DNA of 64,000 nt from positions 5,549,401 to 5,613,400 of the forward strand of contig OX359198.1 of the NCBI GenBank assembly GCA_947172415.1. Direction: 5' to 3'. The translations under genes were made by a program, and so were the position numbers. Of the stretch, positions 1,358 through 64,000 are shown in pieces. The DNA is from Chondrosia reniformis. Its lineage: Eukaryota; Porifera; Demospongiae; Chondrillida; Chondrillidae. Under the pieces are notes generated by a model, which was given only the letters and a program-made list of their open reading frames with translations, searched no databases and had not been told where the DNA came from. Each line of letters begins with the position of its first letter. Positions within the stretch are counted from its first letter, which is position 1.

Positions 1358-1365
1358 TATTTAAA
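1358..1365 (+). promoter_or_regulatory. TATA-like element before the IGFBP/CCN-like gene
   Basis: TATTTAAA lies 44-51 bp before the start codon at 1409, in a stretch richer in CpG than its surroundings (about 1230-1340). Position and sequence fit a TATA box with a very short 5' UTR. This is suggestive only, since TATA-like strings are frequent in this AT-rich DNA. Confidence 0.3.
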
Positions 1366-1408: not shown

Positions 1409-4400
1409 ATGAAGTTCTCACGTTGTCAGCGTTTCCCGTGTAGTGCTCTTAAAATCAGTTTTTCCAGCTGCTCAACATTGCAGTTTTCATTACTTTTTCT
1501 TTGTTTACAAAGTGTCAGCGAATCTCTAACTTGCACCTGCGATATGTCCAAGTGCCCAAAATTGCCCAGAAACTGCACCAATCTAGAAATAAACCCGTGT
1601 ACCTGCTGCCCAGTCTGCATAAAGGAGGAGGGCGAGAGATGTGGTGGCTGGATGAATTCTGAAGGAACTTGTAGAACTCCCTCCTTCAGCTGTGCTTACA
1701 GGCTTGGCAGCATACTCGGACCTCATAAAGCAGGAATTTGTGAGCCAGGCGAGTTATAGACATGCTATTGAGGAAGCTTAACCGTTTGTTTTGATATAAC
1801 AAATCTTCCAAATGTCTCAATTAGAGCTAAATATAATCTTCTTTTACCAAATATGGAAATTATACATTATTAAGATTCAAAAACAAGTATATCCTATATA
1901 TACATATTACATGTATCCCTATATATTTCATTTTGTTGTGGTTCCTAGGAAACTTTAGCATAATATGAGTTGTCTTTCTAGTTATTAATTTACTAGAATC
2001 TATATCAGATCCATGTCAAAATCAGCTATGAATTATCTTATTTGAAAAGATAGACACTTATTAAATTATCTCCTTTAAATAGGCTGTTTTCATTTCACTT
2101 TGGGTATATTTAGCCATGGAAACCGTTACTCTTTGGTCTTCTATCATTATGATTATATATTTTAAATATATCAGTTCATATAAATTGTATATATACGCTC
2201 AAGTCTATTTATAGCTACAGTCACTTTGCTATAACTTTTTGTTAGTGGGTGGTTAGATTAGTATGCATGCATTGCATTGTGTAGCTGGTATGTTTGGTGG
2301 CTACACTTTGTATATGAAATACTTTAGTTTCTCAAGTGTGTAATTGCATAGTGACATAGTGGTAGTGGGCGTCTTCACCATGGCAACCTGAATAAGAAGC
2401 AAACTCCAAAATGCTACTGACAGGTTAAGTGTTAAAGTGAATTCAAACTGAATTGCATATATGCACATTGATATTCAAGCAAGCTTCTACAGCATATATA
2501 GGAACACCATGGCTAGTGTTTAACCATAAAAACTACAAAGCTTATTGAATGGGAATTGATGATGCATGAAATTGGACTAATTGAAATGTAAACGTTATTA
2601 AAAGGTATCTAATATTCTGTGTAGTCAGCTAGTATAGGGAGAGGACTACCTGCAAAGTTTGTGTGGTGATACAAAAGGATATTTGTAAAGCCACTTAATA
2701 GCAAGAATGATAACAAAGGATATTTCCTGTTACATATCTTCATGTTACAATGGGAAACTGCATGACATATTGTATGGAATCTACAGAATGTGTGTGGAAT
2801 GTATACATATATGTTGATCACTCCAGAAGCACTTTGCCTGTTAATATTCTTCATTTATGAGATACCACTACACCATCCAACCAGCCTTCTTCTCTTGTAT
2901 ACACTGGTACACAGGAAGATCAAGGAGTAACTATATTCATAGATTTATGAACACATAAACAATGAGTTCACCCCATGAAATTTTATTACCGATTGGAATT
3001 TTTGCTAGCAAAATATTAATACCCTGCCTATGAATACTCTTGAACTGGACATTTTATGGTCATAGTCTTATCTATGGTCGCACTTGACTGGATAAAGTAT
3101 GCAATAGTAGATAACCTTAAACACAAGGGTTATACCACAAGATTCTTGTTTAGGAGATAAGTCATGTGATAAAGTTGGACCTTCTCCTTTCATCAGCTTA
3201 TACATTCAATACTCTGGTGAACTCTGACCTCTGTCATGTGACATTTTGTCTATGATTTTGTAAGAGGGGGTTAATTGTTAATTACACTTAGCATGTGCAA
3301 AGGCCATGATGATAAGTAAATAAGAAGTGTTTATTTACGTAGGGGTGCATGCTTTGACTCCAAAAGTGGTGTCAGAAGAGTGCACTGTGGTGCCAATCAC
3401 CTAACAATTGGAGCCCCCATGTTAATTGCCGTAGGATAATAATTTCAATTAGAAATGTATCTAAATAATATATACATTTTGGTTGTAAGCAGTTAGGTTC
3501 GAGAACACAACCTTGTGTCACTAAATTACTGTCCCATGTAATGGTAATTCAACACTCTTGTTTACTCATTATTCTTATTTTATTTCATTTTAGAGAACTG
3601 TAATGATGAACATTGCAATTTTAGACAAAGATGTGCCTTGAATAGGGCAACTCGTCTTCCTCAATGCGGCTGCCCACAGTTCAACTGTAATGGCAAATAC
3701 AATCCAGTCTGCGGTAATGACAACATCGAATACCTCAGTGTTTGCCGACTACAAAAGGAGGAGTGTGCCCTTGGAAAGTTTATTGGTATAAAGAATTTTG
3801 GTGGTTGTCCGCCACCTAACAGTAAGTTATTATGTCCTATTTGTACATATGTATATTGAAATGCCAATATATGTACGTACATGCATCAAGGAATGCCAAT
3901 CTCTATATTCTCCTTTAGCTGAAGCTCCTGAAAATTCCCTTCCATCTGTAACACCAAGTAAGCATTTGTTATCCAAGAATATATGTGCGTATATGCAAGA
4001 AAACAAATGTCGTATGCTTTAGTAATTAGGATAATACATAGATATCTGTTCAGATTATGTAATACGGAGGGGTATCAGATAATCCTTCAAGCATGTATAA
4101 TTCAATTGTAAATCTCAAAAAAAACAAATGTCGATTTTATTCAAATGTCTGTAATTTCAGACTCTGGAATACTATATATAAAACATTGAACTGACAAATT
4201 AATATACAGTATACAGACTTTGCCTCATGTGAACATCTCTATCTTTTTTATAGAATCCTGTATTTATAACAATAACATATATACTATTGGTGATGATATC
4301 CCATCAACTGATCCATGCATCAAAAGGTAGGTAGTTACATATGGTGTAATCCAGTCGCAATACACAGCTAACTTATACTGATGTGCTAAAGCAAGATATT

Positions 4401-6005
4401 ACAGTCTCCTTATGTATGTTTGTACAGTTACTGCTCAAGTAATGGCAAAATAAAAATAGTTGAAATACCAGGATGTGGAGGTGAGTGCGACTGTAGTGAA
4501 AGATGAGGTGACAGAGTATCAATGTAATCACATTTCCATTTTGTCTTTAGATAATCCACCAGAGAAGGACTGGAGAGTAGAAAGGTCTCTTGGTAAGTTT
4601 ATCTATTCAAAATACTCATTTTTAAGTTATCCTAATAAACAGTATTTTACTCTTTGATTGATTGATCTATGCCAAAATTCTGTGGACAGTACTAGCATCC
4701 TAAAAGTCTATCAAATACGTAGTAATTACAGGTTTTCTTTTACAGTTAATGGCAGTTGGTCCACTTGGACATCTTGGTCGATGTGTAGTGGTAGATGCGG
4801 GGCAGCGTTTAGGAACCGATCCAGGAAATGTAATAATCCGCCTCCACAAAATGAAGGTCACAATTGTACTGGTCTGTCCATTCAAGAGAGGCCTTGCATA
4901 CTAGAAGACTGCTCACGTGAGCCATTTTGCACCAGACCTGTGGTCAACAAGTACGTATTTAAGTATTATATCATTACTCATATGTAGTTGAAGAGAAGTG
5001 CAAGCCCTTTGTTGGAGGGTGGAGTTACTGGTCTCCATGCAACAGTGCTTGTGGAGTGGGACAAATGAGTAGACGAAGACTGATTAATCACGGACAGTTA
5101 CTCCAAGCTTCCTTAGCTGAAAAGAAAAAGATTCTTACTGAATGCTTAACAGAGGAGACAGCAACCTGTTCAGTGACGTCATGCAATTCTGGTACATATA
5201 CTTGTCTTGTCCTGTAATACAATAAGCATAATTCTGTGTGTTAAGTTAATCAGGCCCATAGCCAGCCTTCTCAGTAGGGGGGTTCTAAAAATTGATCTGT
5301 ATTGAAAGTTTCCGCCATTTTTACGCTATGCATGCTACCGTGAGAAGGGACCTTTTACGTACGTATACGCGAGAGTCAGAGACCATTCCCAGCTAAGCAG
5401 CAAAGCTGCAATCTTCCAGTGGCATAATTCATTCGCCACTCACATGAGGGGGAAATAGTAGGACTGTGTGATATAGAAGGTTGGTTTCCTATGTAGCTAA
5501 AAGTAACTATCATTCATTTAAATGATAAACTTCTGAACAGGAAATTTTAGGGGGTTCGTTCATACCCCTCGAACCCCCCCTGGCTACGGGCCTGTAAATA
5601 TATAGGTTATTAAATGTAGATATATGTACAGTATGTATGTATGTACATATATACCCTGTATAATTATTTACAAGACCATCGTTCTCCTACTCACTTTGTG
5701 AATTTGAAATGGGTCCTTTATTTGTTGTAGGTTCTACCTGTCAAGCAAATAGCACGTTTGACTATATTACAATTGAGCACCCTTTAAAACAAAATAGACC
5801 AGCCAATGAATGGTATTGCAGATCTATTCAGAGGTACAGACGTTTAGTCTGTAGTGGAGGGTGTCCAAACGGAGGAGCAAACAGCTGCTGCAGGCCAAAC
5901 GGAAATAGGGCAAAGAGAGTTATCTTTAAATGTGATCCTAATTCTGTGAAACAAAGAATAGAATATATAAAGTTCCCTTATGCATGTCAATGCAATTGTA
6001 ATTAA
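1409..6005 (+). CDS. Secreted IGFBP-Kazal-VWC-TSP1-TSP1-CTCK protein (CCN-like)
   Basis: Nine exons keep one frame: 1409-1748, 3594-3821, 3919-3957, 4254-4326, 4428-4480, 4551-4592, 4746-4916, 4988-5191, 5731-6005 (474 residues). Order: N-terminal hydrophobic segment around residues 26-36 (probable signal peptide), IGFBP N-domain (CTCCPVC followed by GERCGG), Kazal module (PVCGNDNIEYLSVC) near 115-190, a short linker, a VWC-like segment (CIYNNNIYTIGDD, DPCIK, CSSNGK) near 203-245, two TSP1 repeats (WSTWTSWSMCSGRCG; WSYWSPCNSACGVG), and a C-terminal cystine knot with CSGGCP and a CQCNC ending. IGFBP-VWC-TSP1-CTCK is the CCN matricellular layout; IGFBP-Kazal is the IGFBP7/HtrA1 layout. Inferred role: extracellular-matrix or growth-factor binding protein. 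Introns inside the VWC-TSP1 part are mostly phase 1, the usual state for shuffled extracellular modules. The VWC call is the weakest because it has fewer cysteines than usual. Confidence 0.85.
1749..3593 (+). other. GC-AG intron 1 of the CCN-like gene
   Basis: The donor is CAG|GCGAGT at 1749. It joins to the AG at 3592-3593 with a split GAG codon and gives CEP-E-NCNDEH in frame. The nearby GTGAGC at 1740, spliced to the same acceptor, would create an immediate TAG, and reading through reaches TAG at 1757. GC-AG is therefore the only join I find that keeps the Kazal exon in frame. The intron has no gene-like content that I can see; it is AT-rich. Confidence 0.7.
5251..5594. mobile_element. Short TIR element (MITE-like) in the last CCN-like intron
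   Basis: The 344-bp segment starts CAGGCCCATAGCCAG and ends with its near inverse CTGGCTACGGGCCTG. The termini also carry a run of G followed by TTC on the left and the corresponding GAACCCCCC on the right. There is no open frame inside, so this is a non-autonomous element. A clear target-site duplication is not visible, so the superfamily is left open. Confidence 0.7.
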
Positions 6006-6670
6006 AAGGATATTTTATATCCTTTCACTCATTGAAAACTTTTTTAACCATTTTCATGTTTTTGTTCCTTTCTCACTTAGACTGTGTATGCTTATATACA
6101 TTCCCACTTGACTTGACCCACCACTGTAATGATTGTATACTGTATTTATGTGTATCAACAAATTTAGAAATATCTATGTATGTATACACATTTTCTATGT
6201 GACAAAAAGATGTAATTTTTACCAGATATTCATTCTGAATTTGAAGTGAAACTTGTTTGGTTTGTAAGTCTCCCCTGGTACACGAGGCCCCCTGACATCG
6301 TGGGCCCCTGGTACATGCACAAGGATATCTGACAGAATTTTCTCTGTTATAACAATTCACTAATCATTAAATCCAAGAACATTAAAGTTTTGTTGAAATT
6401 TCAGGATTAGAGATTCAATTATATATTCACACTTTGCAGTTCTTCTATAGCATTGCAACATTTAAATAAACACTGACAGCATTGTAGGCATTCTTGAGGT
6501 ATTTATGATGTGTGGGAAAACATTCTAGCTATTTCCATAAGAGGATATGTCATGCCAGCCTGTAGATATGGTAATGTTTGCATACTAATTGCTATAACAA
6601 CTAATTAAAAAGCAGTTGAGCTCATATTTTAGCAAGTTTCACAAGTACTCAAGTAATTAATAGCATTAAA
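6006..6670. other. 3' flank of the CCN-like gene, no gene seen
   Basis: AT-rich sequence without a convincing frame. An AATAAA at 6465-6470 could end the CCN-like transcript with a 3' UTR of about 460 bp, but nothing shows that it is used. Confidence 0.4.
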
Positions 6671-35033: not shown

Positions 35034-38000
35034 TTATTTAGAAGCAGGTGTAGTTGTATGAATTGTTGCAGGGGAGGAAGTCATTCTTATTTGGTTCATT
35101 CCTTGCGAGGTGCCACTAAACTGAGGTTGAGAGGTGAAACCTTGCTGCCCCACATAGCTATGTGGCAATTGGTTCATATTGGAACCAACAGGCATGGGAT
35201 GATGAGGTCTGGGAAGTGATTGAAAAGCTTGAGATAAACCTAGACGCCCTGGAAATGTAGATTGCTGTCCCTGGGGTAATCCCTGCTGTCCCTGGGGTAT
35301 TCCTTGCTGTCCCTGGGGCCTGAACTGCTGTCCCTGGGGTATTCCTTGCTGCACCTGGGGTAATCCCTGCTGTACCTGGGGTATTCCCTGCTGTCCCTGG
35401 GGTATTCCTTGCTGTCCTTGGGGCCTGAACTGCTGCCTCTGAGGTACTCCCTGTTGCCCCAGAGGGGGCATTGAGTGCTGTCCCTGAATGGTGGACTGAC
35501 TTCCTGGTGGAAAAGGTTGGTATCCTTGAGAAAATGGAATCTTTTCTTGGGATAGCTGTTGCTGACTAAGCATTGGATTGTGTGCTGTCTGAAATACTGC
35601 TTGCTGGCCCTGGTATAGCCCCTGTTGGCCCTGGTGTAGCCCCTGTTGGCCCTGGGGTGGCCCCTGTTGACCCTGGGGTGGCCCCTGTTGGCCCTGGGGT
35701 GGCCCCTGTTGGCCCTGGGGTGGCCCCTGTTGACCCTGGGGTGGCCCTTGTTGGCCCTGGGGTGGCCCCTGTTGGCCCTGGGGTAGCCCCTGTTGGCCCT
35801 GGGGTAGCCCCTGTTGGCCCTGGGGTAGCCCCTGTTGGCCCTGGTGTAGCCCCTGTTGACCCTGGGGTAGCCCCTGTTGGCCCTGGGGTAGCCCCTGTTG
35901 ACCCTGGTGTAGCCCCTGTTGGCCCTGATCCAAGGAGAGGGGTTGCTGGGGAGGCAAGCTGAAAAGCCCACCTGGTCCAGGTCTCAGTGACACTACCTGA
36001 GGAGGCTTCTGCAACTGCGACGTCATGACAGTTTGTGGTCTAGGAACTATTACTGATGGTAGAGTAGTGGGTCGAGGTGAGGGAACTAGTGGCTCTGTCA
36101 TTGAGCTCACTTGTGGTACTGTCACATCAATCGGATGGGGCTGTGACTTAGGTGTATATGGAAGTGCTTGAGGCATCCCTTGCGACACCCCCTGGGGAAC
36201 TCTCTGAGGCATCCCCTGTAACACCCCCTGGGGCATATTGTGTGAATAGGCCACAGAAGGTGATTGCTGCTGGGCACTACTAGGAGAAGCCAGGTTTGCA
36301 GAAATGGCACCTTGTGATTGAAGACCAGGCTTTGGTTGGTTCTGGCTAGCAGCTACAGGCAGCTGAGAATGAGCTGGTAGTGGATTCTGAGGGGCTGTGG
36401 TAGGTTGGGAAAGTGGTGTCAGGGGCTCTGACATTTTCAGTGGATCTGAAGGCGTGGCTGGCCTAGGTGGGTGTGTTTGCCCAAGGGGTTGTGGCTCCTT
36501 TGAAGGTGCAGGCCTACCCTGCTGGGACGATCCAGTCTGCAAATGAAAGAGAAGATCTTGTAATTGTTTCTTTAAGTTGCTTATCTCTTCCCTGTGCTTC
36601 TTGTCAGCTGATTTCAGTTCCTCTTGACTCTCCTTAAGGTGGCTAAGTTCCTCCTTGTACCTCTGTTCCTTGGTGCCCCACTGCTGTTGCTGAAGGGCAA
36701 CCTGCTGCTGCTGGTTTTGCAACTGTTCCAAGTTTCTTTGTTTCTCCTGCAGTTCTCCTTGGCATTGCTGGACGTACTGATGTGATTGATGTATCTGAGA
36801 CATGCTACCCTGCAAACGCATCTGAAGCTGTTGAATCTCATTATTCTTCTGACTCAAAATCTGTTCCAAACTCCTAACTCTATCAGATGTCTCCTTCAAC
36901 TTTTCAGCATAGGTATTTTGTGAGTCCCTTAACTGGTTTTGTAATTCCCTAACTTTAGCTCCAAGCTCTTGGATTTTTGATTCAGCCTCTTCATTCAGCT
37001 GTCGTAACTGTTGCTTTAATCGATCCTTTTCCAGTTGTTCTTGTCCAAGTTGTTGTTCGTATTTCACCAACTGGACATGAACCTTCTTCCTCTGAGTTTC
37101 ATTCTGTTCCTGCAACTTGTGTATAAATGCTTGTTGCTGCTGGATCATAGGTTGCTGTTGTTGTAGCATTGATAACAGCGACTGGTAGTAGGCAGAAGAA
37201 GTCGCTTTGTCCCTGATTTGCTCATCGAGCTGCTTTCGAAGGGAGTCTATAGCTAGTTGCTGCTCTTCAACCTTTTGTAGCTGCTGTTGATACAACTTCT
37301 GTTCAGTTCTCAGATTAATGTCAAAGGAAGCAGGCATGCTCCTATTGCTGATGTCAATGCTAGATTTGAGTTGTGAGACAGATTCCTGTGAAACTGATGG
37401 ATCATCTGCGGGGTATGGTGCCAAGGAAGGCTGCTCAAGTGCTTTGAGAGGTACCTTGTTGCCTGGTGTATCGTCAGAATCCGTTTTAGCCAAATTTACA
37501 GTTATTTCAGATTCTAAGTTGTGATGAGGTTGAAAGGGATTAGAAGAAGGTTGGAAATCAGGATGATTATCTTGAGTCTGCTCAACACCAGAAACATCGC
37601 TGAGGTCAGAGAGGTGCTGCCTGTTTGGAGGCTGATGGACGTCTGGTGGCTGATGGACATCTTGAGGCTGGTGGACATTTGGAGGTTGTTGAATATCTGG
37701 AGGCTGGTGGACGTCTGGAGGCTGGTGGACGTCTGGAGGCTGGTGGACGTCTGGAGGCTGGTGGATGTCTGGAGGCTGGTGGATGTCTGGAGGCTGGTGG
37801 ATGTCTGGAGGCTGGTGGACAACTGGAGGCTGGTGGACATCTGGAGGTTGTTGAATATCTGGAGGCTGGTGGATGTCTGGAGGCTGGTGGATGTCTGGAG
37901 GCTGATGGACATCTGGAGGTTGTTGAATATCTGGAGGTTGCTGAATGCTTGAATGTAGCTGGATATCTGGAGGTCGTTGGATATCTGGAGGCCGTTGGAT

Positions 38001-41000
38001 GTTTGACTCCTGTGGTTGCAATACTGTATCAGGCAGTGAAATGTTTCTAATGTGCCGACCTTCAGAATCATCTGGATCAGGTAACAGAGGCGTCTCCTCA
38101 TCCAGTTTTGGAACACTTGAAAGGTCCTTATTCACTAATTCATCATCTTTAGGTACATCGTCTGTCTGGTCTGATGACGGACGGGTGTCTATTCCAGAAG
38201 ACTCAAGCCCAAATATGAAACTAGGTTCTTTAGCTTCGGAGGGTACGATCGGAAGACTCTTGCTACCTTCACCAGGGGGAGTAAGAGTAGGAGTAGGAGT
38301 AGGTCTAGCTTTGTTTGTAAAGGGAGGCTTTGTCAAAAAATCTGTAACTGAATTATGTTGCTCCGCATTAGGAATCAAACCCAAGGTTCCTGCCTCTGGG
38401 ACTAAACTTAGATTATTTTCTTTGGGAGTGCCATCTTGAAAAGTTGGACTTTGAAATATGGGATTTGGGGTTAAACTATTTTCCCTTGACTGAGGATCCA
38501 GTATATCTGCAAGTTCACTCAGAAAAGAATTGTGGGGCTGAAGTTTGTCTTCATTACTGGGAACTTGAGGCAATGACTCTGTTTCTGGTTTAGAAATGGG
38601 TTCTCCTCTCATGTCAATCCGCTTGGGTGGGCGTGATGGAGGGTGTGTTGAAGGACTAGTTGGTTGGATATTAGGTAGAGGTGATGCACTTCCTATAGAA
38701 GTGAATATATTACGTATATACATAGACCAAACAATCAGGCAGAGGTGCATGTCCTAACTAACCACTTTTTGGAGGATCGTCTTTAGATAATTGGGAAAGA
38801 ACCACTTTGACACGATCCCTCAATTTGATCATATTGCCATGGAGACGACGATAAAAGCTTAATCCTTCTACAAGCTTTCCTTCAATTAAGGGATAATTAT
38901 TTCCAGCATTCAAAAGGGAATGAAAGAACTCCTCTTGACTGTAAAGGCAGGGATATAGGGGTAGGTTAGGTTAAGAATGGAATTCAGTTACGAGTGATAT
39001 GTACACTTTTGATAATGATAATATCAGTGGAAATATATTTGAGTGTAATTACCTTTGAGTTACATCCAGTGCTGCCTCTCTAATGTTAGCATGCTGTGCA
39101 TTAGCCTCTGTTAAAGCTCTGGAGGAGGAAGAGTTAGGAATAATAGGTACATTTATACTATTGGAACACATACATGTACATACATTTACACTATTGGAAC
39201 ACATACATGTACATACATTCATACTATTGGAACACATACATGTACATACATTCATACTATTGGAACACAAACATATTTGTAGATATGAACTTACTGAAGT
39301 ATATTCTCCTGAGCTTGCAGATTCTGCCTAATTATAGCAACCTTCTCCTTGTGGGGTGTCATGTGATCATCAAACAAGGCCTACACACACCAGATATGTG
39401 CACATGCATACATATGTATATACGTACATACATATGTATCCATATACCTACGTACGTATATATGTATGTGCAGATATGTGGATACGTACGTATGTGGATG
39501 CAGAAAAGAGAAAAATCACAAATTTATAGTTTGAGTATTCAACATACGTACGTATGTACGTATATGTTCATAATAACTCACATCTTGGCTTTTATCAGGT
39601 TGTGTTAAGAGCGATTTAGTGATGTCATCATTCGCAATCTAAGCATGCAAACATACATACACTTTAGTATGCAAATACCAGTTCCAGATATATGTATAAT
39701 AAATGTGAATATCATTAACTTTACTCACAGCATCCCTCAGTTGTGTTATAAGGAATCTTCTTTGGATTTTCATTTCATCAACTTTTTTCTAATGAAGGCG
39801 ACATAAATATTTCTATAATTTGGAGTTTAAAGTGTACTGTACATGACTTTAGTACTGAATGTATACGTATATCATTCACTTACGTACCAATACATCTTTC
39901 AATCTCTGTGAATCAAATCCAGATACTTCGGGAACTACAAAAAGGAAGGGATGCTAGAAGAGTCAAGGGAGCAGATAAAAGGAAGATGCTATGTACAGCA
40001 CTAACACTACTACAAATAATAATATAAATAAATAATAATAAATAAATAATACTATAATACTATAATACGAATGTACTCACCATCCATTAGTGTCAGAGTT
40101 GGAACAGCTGCTTGTATAGCACCTAAAGGACTTTGAAGCAAAACAAAGGTTTGGTGGTATTGATCAAAAAGCTGTTTCAGTTCTGAATTTGATTTCACCT
40201 AAATGCAAATGGAAGTGAATCTAAATGACTCAAAAAGGATTCCATGGTCAGCTAATTACATACAGCATCAATATGATATCGCTTATTTCTCTCCATGTCA
40301 TTCCAGCATTCTCCTAAAATGGTTGGTTGCTGGGTATCAGTCTCTTTGTTTTGTCTAATCTCTTCCAGTTCCTCCAGCACACTCTCCACTTCACTTTGCA
40401 ACTTCAATAGCTCTACATAAAATATACAAGTACGTACCTAACTAATAACATACATACATACACATAAGACCTATATATACACAGCATACATAATATTTAT
40501 ATGTACGTATGTATGCATATATACGTAATACAGTTGATTGACCTTCCATATCAGATTTCAGTTTTCTCAAGTCCTTTCCAGCGAGCTCCTGATGATGTGA
40601 TATTACTGCCGCTAAACAAACAGAGATAAAGAACATGTGTGATTACAATTAGGTCAACATGGCTACAAGTGAGGGTAAATGGGTGTGGCTACAACTGAGG
40701 GTAAGTGGGTGTGGCTACAAGTGAGGGTAAGTGGATGTGGCTACAAGTGCGGGTAAGTGGGTGTGGCTACAACTGAGGGTAAGTGGGTGTGGCTACAAGT
40801 GAGGGTAAGTGGGTGTGGCTACAACTGAGGGTAAGTGGGTGTGGCTACAAGTGAGAGTAAGTGGGTGTGGCTACAAGTGAGAGTAAGTGGGTGTGGCTAC
40901 AACTGAGGGTAAGTGGGTGTGGCTACAAGTGTAGATAATTATAAATTTAATGTTGCAAAAATTGAATCTGTACCTGGTAGAGGAGGTGGGCCCTTTGTAA

Positions 41001-61900: not shown

Positions 61901-64000
61901 GGTCAAGTTAAAAACTCACACGCTATTGTTCCGTGGTGATGATTTGAACAAGATGTGACAAGAAACATGTAGAGAGGAAACGAGAGAAATTAGGAAATTT
62001 ATGAAATGATACTTTACACAACTTTACACAACTTTACACTCTGCAGTCAATGTATCAATGCATTTGGGTAAGTCTTTCACCATATCTATCTACACTTCAT
62101 ACAAACCGACAAATGACACTATACGGATACATACAAACTAATGCTCATACAAGTAATTGCAAGTCTGTCAAATATACACATGGTCAAGTTAAAAACTCAC
62201 AGTCTATTGTTCGGTGGTGATGATTTGAACAAGATGTGACAAGAAACATGTAGAGAGGAAACGAGAGCAATTAGGAAATTTATCAAATGATACTTTACAC
62301 AACTTTACACTCTGCAGTCAATGTATCAATGCATTTGGGTAAGTTTTTCACCATATCTATCTACACTTCATACAAACCGACAAATTACACTATACGGATA
62401 CATACAAACTAATGCTCATACAGGTAATTGCAAGTCTGTCAAATATACACATGGTTAAGTTTAAAACTCACCCCCTATTGTTCCGTGGTGATGATTTGAA
62501 CAAGATGTGACAAGAAACATGTAGAGAGGAAACGAGAGCAATTAGGAAATTTATCAAATGATACTTTACACAACTTTACACTCTGCAGTCAATGTATCAA
62601 TGCATTTGGGTAAGTCTTTCACCATATCTATCTACACTTCATACAAACCGACAAATTACACTATACGAATACATACAAACTAATGCTCATACAAGTAATT
62701 GCAAGTCTGTCAAATATACACATGGTCAAGTTAAAAACTCACACACTATTGTTCCGTGGTGATGATTTGAACAAGATGTGACAAGAAACATGTAGAGAGG
62801 AAACGAGAGCAATTAGGAAATTTATCAAATGATACTTTACACATCTTTACACTCTGCAGTGAATGTATCAATGCATTTGGGTAAGTCTTTCACCATATCT
62901 ATCTACACTTCATACAAACCGACAAATTACACTATACAGATACATACAAACTAATGCTCATACAAGTAATTGCAAGTCTGTCAAATATACACATGGTCAA
63001 GTTAAAAACTCACACGCTATTGTTCCGTGGTGATGATTTGAACAAGATGTGACAAGAAACATATAGAGAGGAAACGAGAGCAATTAGGAAATTTATGAAA
63101 TGATACTTTACACAACTTTACACTCTGCAGTCAATGTATCAATGCATTTGGGTAAGTCTTTCGCCATATCTATCTACACTTCATACAAACCGACAAATTA
63201 CACTATACGGATACATACAAACTAATGCTCATACAAGTAATTGCAAGTTTGTCAAATATACACATGGTTAAGTTTAAAACTCACACACTATTGTTCCGTG
63301 GTGATGATTTGAACAAGATGGGACAAGAAACATGTAGAGAGGAAACGAGAGCAATTAGGAAATTTATGAAATGATACTTTACACAACTTTACACTCTGCA
63401 GTCAATGTATCAATGCATTTGGGTAAGTCTTTCACCTTATCTATCTACACTTCATACAAACCGACAAATTACACTATACGGATACATACAAACTAATGCT
63501 CATACAAGTAATTGCAAGTCTGTCAAATATACACATTGTCAAGTTAAAAACTCACACGCTATTGTTCCGTGGTGATGATTTGAACAAGATGTGACAAGAA
63601 ACATGTAGAGAGGAAACGAGAGCAATTAGGAAATTTATCAAATGATACTTTACACAACTTTACACTCTGCAGTGAATGTATCAATGCATTTGGGTAAGTC
63701 TTTCACCATATCTATCTACACTTCATACAAACCGACAAATTACACTATACGGATACATACAAACTAATGCTCATACAAGTAATTGCAAGTCTGTCAAATA
63801 TACACATGGTCAAGTTTAAAACTCACACGCTATTGTTCCGTGGTGATGATTTGAACAAGATGTGACAAGAAACATGTAGAGAGGAAACGAGAGCAATTAG
63901 GAAATTTATCAAATGATACTTTACACAACTTTACACTCTGCAGTGAATGTATCAATGCATTTGGGTAAGTCTTTCACCATATCTATCTACACTTCATACA
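49911..64000. repeat. 271-bp satellite array, about 52 copies, open at the right edge
   Basis: Marker ACTATTGTTCCGTGGTGATG (or its GCTATTG form) recurs at 49986, 50257, 50528, 50799 and so on every 271 bp to the end. Copies are near identical; most changes are single bases at fixed positions, notably the hexamer after AAAACTCA (CCCACT, CACACT, CACGCT, CCCCCT, CAGTCT). Each unit has one CTGCAG. A few units differ in length, e.g. the repeated GAGAGGAAAC near 60065 and a doubled ACACAACTTT near 62022. Short open frames in some units (55524, 56071) are broken in others and are not genes. This is satellite DNA maintained by unequal exchange. Its chromosomal place (centromeric, subtelomeric or interstitial) cannot be told from here. 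Confidence 0.97.

Follow-up and report, generated by a model that had tools for sequence, protein, structure and literature searches.

A sponge gene for a predicted secreted protein that joins IGFBP, follistatin-type, VWC-like, TSP1 and cystine-knot modules in a CCN-like order

The CCN proteins (CYR61/CTGF/NOV), which act in vertebrates as wound and growth factors, are built in the order IGFBP, VWC, TSP1 and C-terminal cystine knot (CTCK), with 12 cysteines in the IGFBP domain and a single TSP1 domain whose first cysteine lies ahead of the tryptophans. IGFBP7 and HtrA1 carry a short Kazal domain after IGFBP, and sclerostin-type antagonists are single-domain proteins. The CCN VWC domain is described, in the account given of it in PMC10326224, as having ten conserved cysteines, and single-domain cystine-knot peptides of sponges are described in PMC4079206. 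A 2019 survey reports that neither Hydra nor any other of the simpler organisms searched yielded a CCN homologue, and it sets the origin of the family at flatworms; its species list includes no sponge (PMC6610741). A more recent survey mentions that in some cnidarian genes an IGFBP and a Kazal domain lie near each other (PMC12955574). Our search of titles and abstract openings among the matches listed, which included no preprints and few subscription journals, found no description of the module order reported here or of a sponge CCN protein.

The gene lies at positions 1409-6005 of the window (the whole 64-kb stretch of DNA that was analysed), where nine exons separated by eight introns are predicted to splice in frame to 474 residues and a stop codon. 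An earlier note on this DNA had read the same translation across eight introns, and its coordinates and frame were reproduced exactly. The features are as follows.

1358..1365, + strand: TATA-like element TATTTAAA, about 50 bases upstream of the start codon; candidate core promoter, by string match only
1409..1748, + strand: exon 1, start codon, signal peptide and IGFBP; phase 1 end
1749..3593, + strand: intron 1, GC-AG, 1845 bases, phase 1; longest intron
3594..3821, + strand: exon 2, residues 114-189: a single follistatin-type domain with 10 cysteines; phase 1-1
3919..3957, + strand: exon 3, short linker without cysteines, phase 1-1
4254..4326, + strand: exon 4, VWC-like half domain, part one; followed by a phase 2 intron
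4428..4480, + strand: exon 5, VWC-like half domain, part two; 4 cysteines in the half domain as a whole
4551..4592, + strand: exon 6, linker without cysteines, phase 1-1
4746..4916, + strand: exon 7, thrombospondin-1-type TSP1 domain, phase 1-1
4988..5191, + strand: exon 8, another TSP1 domain, with its first cysteine before the tryptophans; phase 1-1
5731..6005, + strand: exon 9, CTCK-like (cystine-knot) domain with 10 cysteines, and stop codon; profile score under the cut-off
6465..6470, + strand: first AATAAA past the stop codon; candidate polyadenylation signal, by string match

The string ATTAAA likewise occurs at 6366 and 6381.

The gene model is open and in phase, with its modules and cysteines present. 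Comparison at the sequence level confirmed the predicted order as signal peptide (residues 1-39, assigned by eye only), IGFBP (residues 40-113), follistatin-type domain, VWC-like half domain, TSP1, TSP1 and CTCK. The 48 cysteines past residue 39 are divided 12/10/4/6/6/10 among the modules, with none in either linker. Seven of the eight introns are in phase 1 and the remaining one, within the VWC-like module, is in phase 2; exons 2, 7 and 8 each encode one phase 1-1 module. The earlier note had argued from the agreement of exon phases that the order could not be a fusion. The phases do agree, but the conclusion does not follow, as two phase-1 genes could equally fuse; with seven of eight introns in phase 1, such agreement is weak evidence for a single gene.

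Profile searches placed these modules with uneven clarity. The Pfam IGFBP model (cut-off 28) was borderline, at 26.9 bits for exon 1 alone, 21.7 when the whole protein was scanned, 27.6 in a genome search and 28.2 with neighbours in frame; as in CCN proteins, the IGFBP domain has 12 cysteines and comes after a signal peptide, the latter judged by eye. Both TSP1 domains exceeded the TSP_1 cut-off of 21.6 (37.7 bits for exon 7 and 31.9 for exon 8), and the top PDB matches of exon 7 were thrombospondin-1 TSP1 repeats. Exon 2 scored 38.6 bits with Kazal_2 (cut-off 22.8) and matched only Kazal models in Pfam. Nevertheless, the simple Kazal label that it had been given must be replaced: it has the ten cysteines of a follistatin domain, which is made up of an N-terminal hairpin part and a Kazal part, and of its 76 residues, 2-72 can be aligned to domains of follistatin and agrin, identifying a follistatin-type domain contained in a single exon. 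Exons 3-6 reached 18.8 bits with SVWC (cut-off 27), so that the VWC-like module proposed earlier holds its position but amounts to a half domain with 4 cysteines and a sub-threshold profile. Exon 9 likewise gave only 13.8 bits with Cys_knot (cut-off 24), compared with 55.4 for the CTCK of human CCN2. The Pfam check suggested at the outset therefore succeeded for Kazal_2 and both TSP_1 domains, was borderline for IGFBP, and fell short for VWC and Cys_knot. Neither SVWC nor Cys_knot was reported in the whole-protein scan, exon 9 was not returned when the Cys_knot model was run against the genome at E values up to 10, and none of the 18 genomic matches to the VWC model lies in this gene. Because these profile scores fall short, it is the arrangement of cysteines, together with pairwise similarity, that supports the names CTCK and VWC. 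In PDB searches the CTCK exon gave best E values of only 0.072 (VEGF-like chains) and 0.64 (sclerostin), and the IGFBP piece one of 0.014 (IGFBP7); single-sequence structure prediction of this exon yielded a poor model (mean pLDDT 51.5, pTM 0.28).

The cysteine layouts were also searched as four spacing patterns (IGFBP, follistatin, TSP1 and CTCK), written after the sequence was seen, in six frames across the 64 kb. All six matches fell at exons 1, 2, 7, 8 and 9, one of them being the loose follistatin pattern, which also fits exon 1; both TSP1 matches overran the exon ends by a few residues. Sixty simulated windows gave a mean of 0.0 matches for every pattern.

Pairwise scores, with z values against cysteine-keeping shuffles, were obtained against nine IGFBP, five TSP1 and ten CTCK references. 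The IGFBP domain is nearest IGFBP7 (score 110, best of the nine; also its PDB match) and sponge paralogues, whereas the IGFBP domains of CCN proteins occupy the bottom three places (55-71). An IGFBP tree of 10 rows had no starred branch. The front of the protein is accordingly IGFBP7-like, as first proposed, in its IGFBP domain but not in the module that follows, which is follistatin-type rather than a short Kazal and nearest agrin and follistatin. With these proteins it shares a ten-cysteine domain in one exon, although here the domain is present as a single copy within an otherwise unlike layout. Both TSP1 domains score higher against thrombospondin-1 repeats than against CCN among the five references, although a Pfam scan found no further thrombospondin domain in the protein. 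For the CTCK, the highest raw scores were those of CCN1 (73) and CCN2 (72), with z values of 5.1-6.1 for CCN1-3, in excess of cysteine-keeping shuffles; sclerostin, at a score of 68, gave the top z of the ten references (8.0), and with a milder gap cost the values were 6.3 for sclerostin and 4.2-6.2 for CCN. The lean to CCN is small: pairs of established CTCKs from separate families give similar z values (CCN2 with VWF 4.7, with MUC2 4.8 and with gremlin 4.9; VWF with MUC2 6.1). The CTCK thus appears nearest CCN1/CCN2 and sclerostin, barely over this between-family baseline. The CCN-like back envisaged in the earlier note can be kept, to that extent, for the CTCK, but not for the TSP1 domains.

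Nearest references that differ from module to module are the pattern expected of a shuffled protein. We consider it probable, at roughly 0.6, that this is a single intact gene for one secreted protein of matricellular type, built by shuffling of phase-1 exons. We infer that the spliced product would be secreted and would stay at cell surfaces or within the sponge matrix; there its modules may take up secreted growth factors or present them. The likeliest such ligands would be of TGF-beta/BMP type, via the follistatin, VWC and CTCK modules, and the TSP1 domains may bind matrix sugars or cell surfaces. The order shared with CCN proteins would then be partly inherited, at the CTCK end, or convergent, and we lean to the latter.

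The gene could instead descend from a common ancestor with the CCN family; either CCN later dropped one TSP1 together with the follistatin module, or the sponge lineage acquired both. Once those two modules are set aside the order is identical, from the leading IGFBP domain through VWC-type and TSP1 to a C-terminal ten-cysteine CTCK, and several details point the same way: the top raw CTCK scores; a loop ahead of the CC pair of 7 residues, against 4 in CCN2 and at least 16 in VWF and another sponge CTCK; a VWC-like half that resembles the first half of rat CCN3, the sole VWC compared, at z 4.5 (3 of 2000 shuffles equalled it); an exon 8 whose first cysteine precedes the tryptophans, as in CCN TSP1 domains; and a CTCK tree (11 rows, no starred branch) that puts exon 9 weakly on the CCN side (79/88). 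However, in that tree the other sponge CTCK, which is pairwise nearer VWF, joins at the same position through a long branch; the CTCK z is higher for sclerostin and CTCKs of different families reach comparable values with one another; and the CTCK gaps are unlike those of CCN2 (first 25 versus 16, last 1 versus 3). The IGFBP and TSP1 sequences are not CCN-like, there are two TSP1 domains rather than one, and the VWC-like half has 4 cysteines instead of ten. The TSP1_CCN model (cut-off 27) shows no preference for exon 8, which at 19.5 bits ranks 6th among 10 matches in this genome (exon 7, 7.5 bits), and a CCN-type TSP1 in exon 8 was rejected on this profile. True CCN kinship is therefore possible but rather unlikely, and it is doubtful that the protein represents, in a sponge, the lineage from which CCN proteins arose, with a follistatin module still in place after IGFBP and before VWC. 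A plain CCN orthologue was rejected on the VWC, TSP1 and extra-module features; on the features tested, the predicted protein is CCN-like in layout and not classifiable as a CCN member.

Membership of the IGFBP7/Kazald or HtrA group, as an extended form of their IGFBP-then-Kazal layout, is highly improbable: the IGFBP domain is nearest IGFBP7 and a Kazal-fold module adjoins it, but that module is of follistatin type, and Pfam at E up to 10 finds neither the Ig domain of IGFBP7/Kazald nor the trypsin-like protease and PDZ domains of HtrA. The 2026 survey also reports that sponges, placozoans and cnidarians yielded no gene of the IGFBP-Kazal-Ig type (PMC12955574). The junction that most affects the single-gene reading is intron 1, a predicted GC-AG join (donor CAG/GCGAGT) linking IGFBP to the remaining modules. 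A single-domain IGFBP gene (exon 1, with a stop at 1757-1759) could precede a separate follistatin-VWC-TSP1-CTCK gene starting inside this intron, since the exon 1 frame reaches that stop shortly past the GC donor, the intron is the longest of the eight, a hydrophobic frame near 2800-2930 (by eye) could by chance be an alternative first exon, and phase-1 ends let any such pair be joined. Yet the GC donor coincides with the end of the IGFBP domain and, among 16 GT/GC sites at 1640-1764, fits 8 of 9 consensus positions with the frame preserved, and we regard two genes as quite improbable. This fit is not proof, because 1.4 donor-like sites of such pattern are expected by chance per 64-kb window on both strands (2 were found). 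As alternative donors for exon 1, the remaining 15 sites each fit at most 5 of 9 positions, and a GT donor after 1739 would create a stop upon joining.

No second copy of the module order was found in the genome, where the CTCK exon, at E up to 10, matched only itself. Two further IGFBP loci, on contigs C5 and C14, showed no frame resembling TSP1 or CTCK when 9-kb stretches were inspected by eye, and neither contig carries any of the genome's 35 TSP_1 matches. The C5 gene (L020), suspected by eye of being a second IGFBP-VWC gene, gave IGFBP alone in Pfam. Thirty of the 35 TSP_1 loci were inspected; six had a cysteine at most 10 residues upstream, of which five (L041, L043, L047, L050 and L052) were set aside because they looked by eye like probable intron sequence; one (L054) was kept. 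Searches of viral contigs with the CTCK exon, and of prokaryote genome contigs with the whole protein, returned no relative, as expected there.

With the CCN order and a follistatin module together in one sponge protein, the origin of the two layouts can be put to the test. A sponge relative of CCN would matter because the 2019 survey found no CCN in Hydra (PMC6610741); were the kinship true, the animal ancestor would already have had the CCN layout, and one ancestral protein would link the CCN family with the IGFBP-Kazal family. If other sponges and cnidarians share the order, the families would be older than thought; if they do not, the same order would have arisen twice from the same mobile exons.

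The candidate gene at 1409..6005 (+) has nine exons which, spliced in silico, encode a 474-residue protein with the predicted order signal peptide, IGFBP, follistatin-type domain, VWC-like module, two TSP1 modules and CTCK.

Exons of the candidate gene (window coordinates)
1409-1748, + strand, exon 1, IGFBP
3594-3821, + strand, exon 2, follistatin-type
3919-3957, + strand, exon 3
4254-4326, + strand, exon 4, VWC-like
4428-4480, + strand, exon 5, VWC-like
4551-4592, + strand, exon 6
4746-4916, + strand, exon 7, TSP1
4988-5191, + strand, exon 8, TSP1
5731-6005, + strand, exon 9, CTCK

Seven introns are GT-AG and intron 1 is GC-AG (CAG/GCGAGT). This donor matches 8 of 9 consensus positions and keeps the frame; the other sites among the 16 GT or GC sites at 1640-1764 match at most 5 of 9, and joining at the alternative GT after 1739 creates a stop, as read from the sequence. 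Because chance alone would give 1.4 such GC donor patterns per window, counting both strands (2 were found), the predicted joining of exon 1 to exon 2 is likely rather than certain. Seven introns are in phase 1, and intron 4, within the VWC-like module, is in phase 2. The earlier note took agreement of phases to rule out a gene-prediction fusion; this argument is weak, since phase-1 ends are the rule here and two such genes joined in error would match as well.

Elsewhere in the window, the upstream neighbour ends in a coding exon (784-1131, +) that is similar to outer dynein arm-docking complex subunit 4 (TTC25; best E 0.00026). Frames resembling Ig, fibronectin type III, RhoGEF/PH and spectrin repeats at 10969-31417 (-) look, by eye, like parts of a single large Trio/Kalirin-type gene. 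A proline- and glutamine-rich open frame of 1239 residues with short 18- and 21-base repeats occupies 35034-38753 (-), and a 271-base tandem repeat (~52 copies, 97% match) runs from 49910 to the window end at 64000, forming a satellite array that spans 14 kb or more.

Past residue 39 the protein has 48 cysteines, divided 12/10/4/6/6/10 among the modules; the linkers contain none. Across the 64 kb, cysteine-spacing patterns were confined to exons 1, 2, 7, 8 and 9, and they averaged 0.0 in 60 simulated windows. The domain list of the earlier note fared unevenly against Pfam: TSP_1 matched twice (37.7 and 31.9), and IGFBP was borderline at a cut-off of 28 (26.9 bits for exon 1, 21.7 for the whole protein, and 27.6, or 28.2 with neighbours, in the genome search). 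The proposed Kazal module matched Kazal_2 (38.6 bits), but the 76-residue exon 2 piece aligns over residues 2-72 with domains of follistatin and agrin and carries 10 of 10 layout cysteines, which identifies it at the sequence level as a follistatin-type domain rather than a lone Kazal. SVWC (18.8) and Cys_knot (13.8) gave weak matches to exon pieces only, the gene was not among the genome-wide matches to the Cys_knot and VWC models, and the CTCK exon found nothing significant in the PDB (best E 0.072); the CTCK and VWC labels therefore rest on cysteine layout and pairwise similarity. The four-cysteine VWC-like module aligns with the first half of the rat CCN3 VWC, the sole VWC compared, at z 4.5 (3 of 2000 cysteine-keeping shuffles as good).

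Modules were compared with reference sequences (that of norrin verified) by raw score at standard gap cost. The CTCK scored 73 with CCN1, 72 with CCN2, 68 with sclerostin, 64 with CCN3, 47 with the other sponge CTCK, 46 with norrin, 45 with gremlin, 29 with VWF, 25 with MUC2 and 23 with NBL1. This suggests a real but small lean towards CCN, small because sclerostin leads by z (8.0, against 5.1-6.1 for CCN1-3) and pairs of known CTCKs from different families give 2.6-6.1. The CCN-like back proposed earlier thus keeps a slight CTCK signal, but both TSP1 modules score higher with thrombospondin-1 (exon 7, 127-144 versus 44-51 for CCN; exon 8, 63-77 versus 31-45), and exon 8 placed sixth of ten genome matches to the TSP1_CCN model. 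As for the IGFBP7-like front, IGFBP7 gives the top IGFBP score (110), ahead of the sponge loci on contigs C5 (106) and C14 (96), ESM1 (82), HTRA1 (80), IGFBP5 (76), CCN2 (71), CCN3 (61) and CCN1 (55), although the adjoining module departs from that likeness. Trees of 11 CTCK and 10 IGFBP rows, a check suggested in the earlier note, have no branch with good support: the CTCK sits weakly with CCN (79/88), where the other sponge CTCK is also pulled on a long branch, and the IGFBP falls weakly apart from CCN (59/78).

Six-frame, exon-by-exon searches of the genome (117,379,552 bases, 15 contigs, including C10, of which the window is 5549401-5613400), whose counts are lower bounds, found no ordinary CCN gene. 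There are at least three IGFBP loci, including this gene. At L020 (C5:7622670) the IGFBP is followed by a short peptide, VWC-like by eye and unmatched in Pfam, then a repeat-rich stretch; at L021 (C14:5637298) it is followed by a Thr/Ser-rich mucin-like stretch. Inspection by eye of the fetched stretches showed no TSP1- or CTCK-like frame at either locus, and C5 and C14 carry none of the TSP_1 matches. The CTCK exon matched only itself; a second CTCK exon, L022 (C7:2321789-2322055; Cys_knot 22.6 bits, cut-off 24), is nearer the VWF CTCK (z 6.2) than CCN2 (z 0.5). The VWC model has 18 matches genome-wide. Kazal, VWC-like and other cysteine-rich exons also occur at C5:1957000-1976000 (L023 on the minus strand, L024 on the plus strand).

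Each module is already known; the novelty is the combination. No published description of this domain order appears among the literature matches listed, nor in the available portions of PMC12549020, PMC6526912 and PMC10280926. One survey, whose list includes no sponge, reports CCN as not found in Hydra or other simpler organisms surveyed (PMC6610741); another reports no IGFBP-Kazal-Ig gene in sponges and some cnidarian genes with IGFBP and Kazal near each other (PMC12955574). The main caution in reading the CCN-like order is the alternative to common descent named in PMC3927612, epaktologs, which are proteins similar only through gain of the same mobile domains.

The protein is rich in disulphides and predicted to be secreted. 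Follistatin, VWC and CTCK modules are each known to bind TGF-beta/BMP-type ligands in other proteins, and TSP1 modules to bind matrix sugars and cell surfaces. PMC10326224 describes TGF-beta/BMP-type ligand binding by VWC modules and also reports that the CCN3 VWC did not bind BMP2. Our best guess is that the protein would act as a matricellular regulator, controlling growth-factor access within the sponge's collagenous body.
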